From a virus: a stretch of 40,219 nt of DNA. Positions 3,323-10,651 of this stretch are shown one piece after another. The notes under the pieces are model-generated. The model had not been told where the DNA came from. It saw only the letters and a list, made by a program, of their open reading frames with translations, and made no database searches. Position numbers and translations under genes: made by a program. How positions within the stretch are numbered: position 1 is the first letter of the stretch; the number at the start of each line of letters is the position of its first letter. Where the stretch lies: IMG/VR virus record IMGVR_UViG_3300027754_000198, positions 1-40,219 of that record; one strand, 5' to 3'.

Positions 3323-3577
3323 ATGAACACCATAAAAGTCCCCGCGTATTTTTTTGACGATTACGACGTGCGCGAGCTTCCAACACCTTGCGTTATTAGT
3401 CGCAACTCACGCACCGTCACGGTCGCCGCCAACGACTTAAATCTAGCAGAGCTACTTAACGATGCCGAACACTATGCTAACCGCTATGGGCCTACCGCGG
3501 GAGACCCAGATTATGCGGGTCTTAGGTCGAGCGCGAGGGCTACGGTTAGAGCAATCAAAAAATTTGCCACCATTTAA
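3323..3577 (+). CDS. Conserved hypothetical phage protein
   Basis: 84 residues. The N-terminal pattern VPAYFFDDYDVRELPTP, then a short beta-like segment, then NLAELLNDAEHYANRYGP, resembles a small protein I recall from phages and mobile elements. In those, a (Y/F)-D-D-(H/Y) and LPTP start is followed by a helix ending in (Y)YA...GP. No function is known to me. The start is fixed by the leader motif. A longer overlapping frame beginning at 3462 belongs to the next gene, whose true start is downstream. Confidence 0.75.
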   Translation: MNTIKVPAYFFDDYDVRELPTPCVISRNSRTVTVAANDLNLAELLNDAEHYANRYGPTAGDPDYAGLRSSARATVRAIKKFATI

Positions 3578-9437: not shown

Positions 9438-9512
9438 GCCTTTGTAGCTCAGTGGTAGAGCATCTGTTTTGTAAACAGGCGGTCGTAGGTTCAAATCCTA
9501 CCAAAGGCTCCA
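9438..9512 (+). tRNA. tRNA-Thr (anticodon TGT)
   Basis: A complete cloverleaf of 75 bases including an encoded CCA. Acceptor arms GCCTTTG and CAAAGGC pair fully, the D-stem is GCTC / GAGC, and the anticodon stem is TCTGT / ACAGG with loop TTTGTAA. The T-stem is GTAGG / CCTAC and the discriminator base is T. The anticodon TGT reads ACA. It lies between the helicase and methyltransferase genes and may support translation of the threonine-rich tail proteins, which I have not tested by codon counting. Confidence 0.95.
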
Positions 9513-9530: not shown

Positions 9531-10625
9531 ATGACATGGATACTACCGAAATCACTCATCTCAGCCTTTGCTCTGGATACGGAGGTCTTGACCTCGGAAT
9601 CAAAGGAGTCTTTGGCGAAAATGTGCGGACAGTTGCTTATGCGGAAATCGAAGCCTTCGCAATTGAGTGCCTACTTGCGCGAATGGAAGGCGGGCAACTT
9701 GATGCGGCTCCAATCTGGCCTAATCTTAAATCCTTCCCTTGGCAGGCGTTTTCAGACCGCGTGGACATCCTTTCTGGCGGCTACCCCTGCCAGCCATTTA
9801 GCGCAGCCGGGAAGCGACTTGGCACAGAAGACCCAAGACACTTGTGGCCTTTCATCGCAAACGGAATTCGGATTATGCGACCCAAGTTTTGTTTTTTTGA
9901 AAACGTCGAAGGACACATCTCTCTTGGACTCAGAGAAGTCGTTGGAGAATTGGAATCAATGGGTTATCAAGTGTCGTGGGGAATATTCTCAGCGCGTGAA
10001 GTTGGCGCACCCCATCAAAGGAAACGAGTGTTTATTTTGGCCTACCGTAACAACAGCGGAAGCGGGGAAAATAAGTTGCTGTCCAAATTACGGACAGTTA
10101 GGATTGAGCAATCATCCAGAGGTTTGCGGTTATGTGGTGAACCGACCCAAGTTGAAGAAAAAACGGTTTGGCCAAGCCGCCCTGGTCAACCCCAGCACAA
10201 ATGGGAACCGCCAAGAGTCGTGGATGACTCCAAACACGATGGATTCGCTCCCAGTCAGGTCAGCAGAAGCATTGATGAGACAACATCACAACAACCGAAA
10301 GGGAAGGACAACTCATTCCAATTTGCGGGAACAAACAACGATGCCACCGCCAAGTCATTTAGCGTGGGCAACACCCGCGACAAGGGATACACAGGGTCCA
10401 AGGGGGAAGGCCGCGCAAGAGAGGAAGGGGAATCCAATGGATACGCTTCCGAATCAACTAATGATGAACGGAGGAAAGCTCAACCCTCGTTGGGTAGAGA
10501 CTTTGATGGGACTGCCAGTGGGATGGACTATGCCGAGCTGTGTGTCTCCTGTGACAATCGCCACGACGAACTCAGACTCCTTGGAAATGGGGTTGTTCCA
10601 GCTACCGCAACTAAAGCTTTCTTGA
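9531..10625 (+). CDS. Second-frame protein nested over the methyltransferase
   Basis: 364 residues in the +1 frame, spanning nearly the whole methyltransferase gene, with the first ATG after the A-rich leader. It carries three WxTP-type blocks, WPTVTTAE (170-177), WMTPNTMDSLP (231-241) and WATPATRD (279-286), then LNPRWVETLMGLPVGWT (317-333). From memory these are signatures of a phage protein family seen next to or overlapping C5 methyltransferases, function unknown. They fall mainly over the methyltransferase region lacking catalytic motifs, as expected if each frame is constrained in a different part. An alternative is a conserved accidental frame. Confidence 0.6.
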   Translation: MTWILPKSLISAFALDTEVLTSESKESLAKMCGQLLMRKSKPSQLSAYLREWKAGNLMRLQSGLILNPSLGRRFQTAWTSFLAATPASHLAQPGSDLAQKTQDTCGLSSQTEFGLCDPSFVFLKTSKDTSLLDSEKSLENWNQWVIKCRGEYSQRVKLAHPIKGNECLFWPTVTTAEAGKISCCPNYGQLGLSNHPEVCGYVVNRPKLKKKRFGQAALVNPSTNGNRQESWMTPNTMDSLPVRSAEALMRQHHNNRKGRTTHSNLREQTTMPPPSHLAWATPATRDTQGPRGKAAQERKGNPMDTLPNQLMMNGGKLNPRWVETLMGLPVGWTMPSCVSPVTIATTNSDSLEMGLFQLPQLKLS

Positions 10626-10651
10626 CATTGCTTGAGGATTTAATCAAATAA
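9536..10651 (+). CDS. DNA (cytosine-5) methyltransferase
   Basis: 371 residues. Motif I is LCSGYGGLDLGI (11-22), motif IV is GGYPCQPFSAAGKR with catalytic Cys85, motif VI is FENVEG (121-126), motif VIII is APHQRKRVFI and motif X is LLGNGVVPATATKAF near the C-terminus. It transfers methyl groups from S-adenosylmethionine to cytosine in a specific site, probably shielding phage DNA from host restriction. The target-recognition region (about 170-330) is hydrophilic and low in recognisable structure, and another long frame occupies it. The ATG is five bases after the start of that nested frame, so both may be translated from one leader. Confidence 0.92.
   Translation: MDTTEITHLSLCSGYGGLDLGIKGVFGENVRTVAYAEIEAFAIECLLARMEGGQLDAAPIWPNLKSFPWQAFSDRVDILSGGYPCQPFSAAGKRLGTEDPRHLWPFIANGIRIMRPKFCFFENVEGHISLGLREVVGELESMGYQVSWGIFSAREVGAPHQRKRVFILAYRNNSGSGENKLLSKLRTVRIEQSSRGLRLCGEPTQVEEKTVWPSRPGQPQHKWEPPRVVDDSKHDGFAPSQVSRSIDETTSQQPKGKDNSFQFAGTNNDATAKSFSVGNTRDKGYTGSKGEGRAREEGESNGYASESTNDERRKAQPSLGRDFDGTASGMDYAELCVSCDNRHDELRLLGNGVVPATATKAFLTLLEDLIK

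Follow-up and report, generated by a model that had tools for sequence, protein, structure and literature searches.

Overlapping reading frames for two putative subunits of a C5-cytosine DNA methyltransferase in a phage genome

The 40,219 nucleotides analyzed here (virus record IMGVR_UViG_3300027754_000198 of IMG/VR, positions 1 to 40,219; "the window" below) contain, on the + strand, a cytosine methyltransferase gene covered over almost its entire length by a second open reading frame (ORF). Very probably, the two frames specify the two subunits of a single C5-cytosine DNA methyltransferase, a catalytic alpha chain in frame A and, in frame B, a beta chain responsible for target recognition and carrying motif IX. 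The dual coding itself, the distribution of the motifs over the two frames, the pairing of the start codons, and the homologs in which the same pieces are collinear or differently split are observed directly and, together, they lead us to infer strongly a two-subunit enzyme.

Two genes in one stretch of DNA

Frame A (9536..10651, +; 371 amino acids), the putative alpha subunit, is a C5-cytosine methyltransferase catalytic chain that matches PF00145 (7.4e-35, amino acids 7–182, where the Pfam match ends) and phrog_363 (1e-57). Frame B (9531..10625, +; 364 amino acids), the putative beta subunit, is on the same strand in phase +1 and overlaps 98% of the codons of frame A. An earlier, sequence-only reading had described these nested frames, with an A-rich leader preceding both ATGs and the frame B ATG five bases before that of the methyltransferase; all of this is seen in the sequence, as are the three W-x-T-P blocks (W170, W231, W279) and the LNPRWVETLMGLPVGWT block (B 317–333) of frame B. 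It had also assigned frame B to a phage family of unknown function. Frame B matches phrog_1008 (3.8e-13 over amino acids 77–333), a profile also matched by 39 of 40 relatives (best 1.2e-30). The function of the family is not wholly unknown, since PHROG 1008 is labeled "DNA methyltransferase" and the layout agrees with that given for the two-polypeptide enzyme M.EcoHK31I in PMC3404938. Searches of frame B against Pfam, NCBIfam, and the sequences of the PDB returned nothing useful.

When viral contigs were scanned with only frame A as the query, which introduces no bias toward frame B, 52 loci were obtained. Every one of them has a match to frame B and, in 46, one unbroken +1 ORF lies beside one unbroken frame A ORF. 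Over the whole collection of loci, both frames are single unbroken ORFs in 66, always at an offset of +1. In a non-redundant set of 42 loci (<90% amino acid identity; some found by frame A, others by frame B), the +1 frame contains no stop codon in 37, over 226–477 codons, where synonymous shuffling expects 2.4–9 stops per locus; the stop count of the +2 frame equals the chance expectation. Frame B had been called not random-looking, and its openness is indeed far beyond chance; stop codons in close relatives, which would have spoken against it, are absent from frame B.

Each wobble position of frame A coincides with the middle base of a frame B codon, so that constraint on frame B must appear as fewer synonymous changes in frame A. 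Such a suppression, proposed as a check in the sequence-only reading, is found in the third bases of frame A. At shared fourfold codons, in pairs 50–70% identical, third-base identity in frame A is 0.54–0.59 overall, against 0.22–0.32 for the helicase of the same window taken as control and 0.26 at random. Conservation is thus about twice that of the helicase, and the excess is gone once frame B ends. By region, the identity is 0.60–0.69 in A 1–60, 0.43–0.49 in A 61–120, 0.66–0.68 in A 121–180, and 0.91–0.93 in A 300–330 (over motif IX of frame B); in A 346–371, past the conserved part of frame B, it is 0.35–0.36. At single positions, the wobble base of A34 is T in 40 of 40 sequences (frame B Leu), that of V76 is G in 39 of 40 (frame B Trp), and that of G320 is T in 36 of 36. 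Conversely, the third bases of frame B codons are conserved at background level in B 181–210 and B 271–300, where frame A can vary freely, and above that level elsewhere. The frame B blocks were said to fall mainly over the region lacking catalytic motifs; the constraint, however, is not confined to that region, since the wobble bases of A 1–60 and A 121–180 are conserved too, with A 61–120 the weakest.

A passive, untranslated frame, kept open by composition and by the strong conservation of frame A, could not suppress synonymous change in frame A to this extent, nor make its wobble bases invariant at motif IX, nor put a start codon before that of frame A in 39 of 39 loci (see below). In favor of a passive frame, changes in A 1–170 that are silent in A and not in B outnumber the reverse (1265 vs. 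313 isolated changes), so that the constraint on frame B is weaker there than that on frame A, and the profile of the beta N-terminal domain also matches the +1 frame of distant phages, e.g., Streptococcus IPP62 and Fancypants, where passive +1 similarity is real. We strongly disfavor this explanation and consider it extremely improbable. Frame B is a real gene, and the DNA is dual coding. In the distant phages matched by the beta N-terminal domain, the match was not accepted as evidence for dual coding, because frame A conservation may produce it passively.

The two genes also start together. In the paired starts ATGACATG (9531..9538, +), the frame B ATG is at 9531 and the frame A ATG at 9536, and relatives show an equivalent pairing: the frame B start is 2, 5, 8, or 11 nucleotides 5′ of the frame A start in all 39 loci with a readable 5′ end (37 ATG and 2 TTG). 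There are two main types, ATGACATGG, with an ATG start for frame A, and ATGTGG, in which frame A would start with GTG. In 11 of the 16 ATGTGG loci, the ATG of frame B shares bases with a TAA or TGA, consistent with the stop codon of a gene lying upstream. The N-terminus of frame B is itself conserved as M-(T)-W-I-L-P. The paired starts suggest one initiation region serving two proteins.

Distribution of the methyltransferase motifs over the two chains

In frame A, motif I (LSLCSGYGGLDLG, 9560..9598, +), motif IV with the catalytic cysteine (GGYPCQPFSAAG, 9776..9811, +; Cys85, invariant in 42 sequences), motif VI (FFENVEG, 9893..9913, +; with E122, N123, and V124 invariant), motif VIII (APHQRKRVFILA, 10007..10042, +), and motif X (DELRLLGNGVVPATATKAF, 10565..10621, +; where the wobble bases of frame A return toward background) can be located, and G350-N351 is invariant. 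Thus, the PF00145 catalytic motifs I, IV (PC), VI (ENV), VIII, and X are all present. Motif IX and a target-recognition domain are not found in this chain; motif IX is found in frame B. Past amino acid 182, motif X alone is recognizable in frame A. The AlphaFold model of frame A (from the 42-sequence alignment) has a confident catalytic domain at about amino acids 1–195 and 350–371, with amino acids 197–348 predicted to be disordered; it aligns with M.HhaI (Z 19.0) and has no small domain of its own. Within this region, a stretch has conserved columns in both frames, VWPSRPGQPQHKWEPPRVV in frame A (10166..10222, +) and the linker GQAALVNPSTNGNRQES in frame B (10170–10220, +). The frame A element directly precedes motif X in the alpha chain of a Paenibacillus phage and in ORF2 of an Alicyclobacillus locus (L105); in the window, the WP..WEPPR element and motif X are both in alpha.

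The motif IX equivalent of frame B (GKLNPRWVETLMGLPVGWT, 10473..10529, +) was located with hhalign, and the wobble identity of frame A is 0.83–0.95 over it. The LNPRWVETLMGLPVGWT segment aligns with the segment preceding motif X in single-chain methyltransferases of actinophages (hhalign 81%, E 1.2e-5 overall); with a C-terminal profile of frame B the same comparison gives 91% (E 9.4e-7), and with the N-terminal region as control 0.6%. In the single-chain enzymes of phages Aggie, Fancypants, and Stultus, arrays of LPTP modules are in frame between motifs VIII and IX. In Alicyclobacillus L105, motifs I–VIII are in one chain and the next chain comprises W-x-T-P modules, motif IX, an WPAGYGEAQYEWEPPR element, and motif X; genes 80 and 79 of Mycobacterium phage Vanisoa are split similarly. 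Homologs outside the nested arrangement, which the sequence-only reading wished to see, thus occur in L105 and Vanisoa as separate genes that only partly overlap the catalytic ORF. Further phages (L078, L121) have the modules in the +1 frame and keep motif X in the alpha frame, with a motif IX-like segment also in the alpha frame of L078. Because the same pieces occur in three ways, as one chain, as a split pair, and intertwined in two frames, beta is best read as a target-recognition and motif IX subunit.

Beta might instead be a separate accessory protein (regulator, inhibitor, or shield) and not the missing piece of the enzyme. Its N-terminal 165 amino acids are without a counterpart found by profile comparison in the single-chain enzymes, and the AlphaFold model of beta alone contains one confident long helix (amino acids 134–159), so that this part could do something besides recognition. 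But frame A has neither its own motif IX nor an ordered recognition domain, the frame B modules and motif IX sit between VIII and X in single-chain relatives, and they are fused to X in L105; we regard an accessory role as unlikely. The dual-coding pair proposed earlier, in which one protein "regulates, specifies or shields" the methyltransferase, stands as a pair; "specifies" fits best of the three and beta probably completes the enzyme, contributing motif IX and the target-recognition region.

The order of the modules is collinear with that in single-chain enzymes, and several phages have module arrays in the +1 frame of otherwise normal chains, as would be expected if +1 ribosomal frameshifting led from alpha into frame B after motif VIII to give one I–VIII–modules–IX chain, the frame B start being unused. 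The product would, however, lack motif X and skip B 1–60 and 121–165, which are constrained as judged from the frame A wobble bases; frame B, besides, has its own conserved start and N-terminus. Programmed frameshifting is set aside as very unlikely, because the N-terminus of beta is constrained and its start conserved.

Several points weigh against the two-subunit enzyme. The model of beta alone is poor (predicted local distance difference test score, 53; predicted template modeling score, 0.22) and does not confirm a recognition-domain fold, and a sequence search of solved structures found no match to beta. In M.EcoHK31I, the predicted target-recognition domain is reported in alpha (PMC3404938), unlike our assignment. 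Finally, a frame is broken in 6 of the 52 loci: a stop interrupts alpha in three (L029, L049, and L070), and a shift affects both frames in three others (L063–L065).

In L063, L064, and L065, which are nearly identical, an indel swaps the frames, and one ORF starts as beta and goes on as alpha. The in-frame stops of alpha are at 3562–3564 in L029 (TAA; L070 is identical there) and at 641–643 in L049 (TAG), with beta open. Stop-codon reassignment was considered for these loci and rejected: the other ORFs listed there end with TAA, TAG, and TGA, so that a broken alpha or a sequence error is simpler. A locus of Pseudodesulfovibrio (L107, 868–2772) contains a tandem pair of methyltransferase genes, and a separate frame B ORF overlaps each of them.

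In the two-subunit enzyme that we favor, alpha would provide the fold of the S-adenosylmethionine-binding catalytic domain, with motifs I–VIII and X and without a target-recognition domain, and beta would bring motif IX and the W-x-T-P array in place of that domain. With its modules standing where a target-recognition domain would be, beta would choose the sites to be methylated; it is expected in the position of the small domain of M.HhaI, with LNPRWVETLMGLP at motif IX. One initiation region, with starts 5 nucleotides apart (2–11 in relatives), would hold the two chains at similar levels. Alpha and beta would form an active heterodimer and protect the phage DNA from host restriction.

The module array of frame B

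The beta proteins contain 1–8 modules, each starting with W-x-T-P, with a median length of 37 amino acids; 22 families of modules are each represented in two or more loci. The window has three modules, all candidate target-recognition cassettes: module 1 (WPTVTTAEAGK..., 10038..10124, +), of the same family as modules of L050, L054, and L055; module 2 (WMTPNTMD...NLREQ, 10221..10334, +), with the same family in L018, L067, and phage C75C1; and module 3 (WATPATRD...TLPNQL, 10365..10460, +), of a family that also supplies the first module in L059 and L062. Module order is conserved: for the 72 pairs of families that occur together, both orders are never observed, whereas shuffles give 14.9 such pairs (minimum 6); the sole exception to the order is one indirect cycle of three loci. 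Free shuffling of modules was therefore rejected.

The window and L001 are from nearly identical phages, with a DNA identity of 95.7% downstream and of 86.8% upstream through the catalytic part of alpha. The N-terminus of alpha is nearly the same in both, and the module arrays differ. Between the two, the region 10046–10474 is replaced, with both frames still open, and the replacement spares the shared linker at about 10169–10212 (82% identity). The exchange, as judged from the sequences, resembles a swap of recognition cassettes. Each module would then be a recognition unit, and we hypothesize that the enzyme is multispecific. We see roughly even chances that beta is an exchangeable array of target-recognition cassettes carried in dual-coded DNA, in which cassette moves gain, lose, or swap specificities while both frames stay open, in a multispecific two-subunit methyltransferase.

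Some arrays show other peculiarities. In Gordonia phage Lton (L113, 1147–2274), LPTP modules occur in both frames of the methyltransferase gene, as if moved between frames. One frame B protein of the alignment matches HNH endonuclease profiles, possibly a mobile endonuclease inserted in the array. In L060 (2989–6190), no stop closes frame B after motif IX; the frame goes on through an additional W-x-T-P module and into a long downstream protein that, by eye, resembles a RecB/Cas4-type nuclease, which would be either a read-through fusion or the result of a missing stop.

Comparison with known methyltransferases

M.EcoHK31I (YGGCCR) is a two-polypeptide C5-methyltransferase with motifs I–VIII and X in the large chain and motif IX in the small one (Lee, Kam and Shaw 1995, cited in PMC3404938). 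The same split is found here at the level of layout. The gene of the small subunit of M.EcoHK31I reportedly lies within that of the large subunit, in a different frame, and here, too, the small chain is in an overlapping alternative frame; that subunit is said to have 176 amino acids, half the length of beta (364 amino acids). The present beta differs in covering 98% of alpha, in starting upstream of it, and in carrying a variable module array. The locus is best read as having the layout of M.EcoHK31I, extended until the two genes overlap almost completely.

M.AquI (CYCGRG) is likewise a split C5-methyltransferase with motifs I–VIII and IX in separate chains. In enzymes of that type, the small chain contains IX and X, whereas in the window X is in alpha and both chains share the same DNA. 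Motifs IX and X do occur together in the small chain of L105 and L074, and L105 and Vanisoa have the M.AquI layout.

The C5-methyltransferases of Bacillus phages (M.SPRI and M.H2I type) have tandem target-recognition domains in sequential order (Wilke 1988; Trautner 1996; cited in PMC8936443 and PMC12707154). Those too are phage orphan methyltransferases with several short tandem modules between VIII and IX, and frame B has several such modules of about 38 amino acids in that place. Each of those enzymes is, however, one polypeptide; the modules of the window have a W-x-T-P signature, lie in a chain of their own that is read in the overlapping frame, and could confer multiple specificities.

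Second-frame proteins have been annotated inside phage cytosine methyltransferases, as "Mte8-like" in Escherichia phage K1H and as "g50 internal gene" in Paenibacillus phage Redbud; in Paenibacillus phage Arcticfreeze, both frames are annotated, as two methyltransferases. In these three, beta starts about 90–200 nucleotides inside alpha, whereas in the clade of the window the start of beta precedes that of alpha, and beta has an N-terminal part that is longer and conserved. A literature search for a described phage example found only mentions of the M.EcoHK31I type. To the known two-polypeptide layout, with I–VIII and X in one chain and IX in the other, this locus adds an overlap that is almost total, the pairing of the starts, and a beta chain built like a set of cassettes.

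Well-supported long overlapping gene pairs on the same strand are few in prokaryotes or their viruses. Here, about 1.1 kilobases encode two proteins, the evolutionary signal is clear in each frame, and the overlap would have a concrete reason, in that the two products would be halves of the same enzyme. Gene callers may report alpha only, as in phage C75C1, where alpha alone is annotated despite a second frame that has no stop for 460 codons; the half that would determine specificity can thus stay unannotated, and specificity predictions from alpha only would mislead. If the modules are recognition cassettes, sequences could predict which restriction systems a phage evades.

The window is from the genome of a tailed phage, with a terminase and a tail spike encoded elsewhere in it, and a gene for a DnaB-like helicase adjoins the locus. 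Between that gene and the methyltransferase locus, just 5′ of the paired starts, there is a gene for tRNA-Thr (TGT) at 9438–9512.
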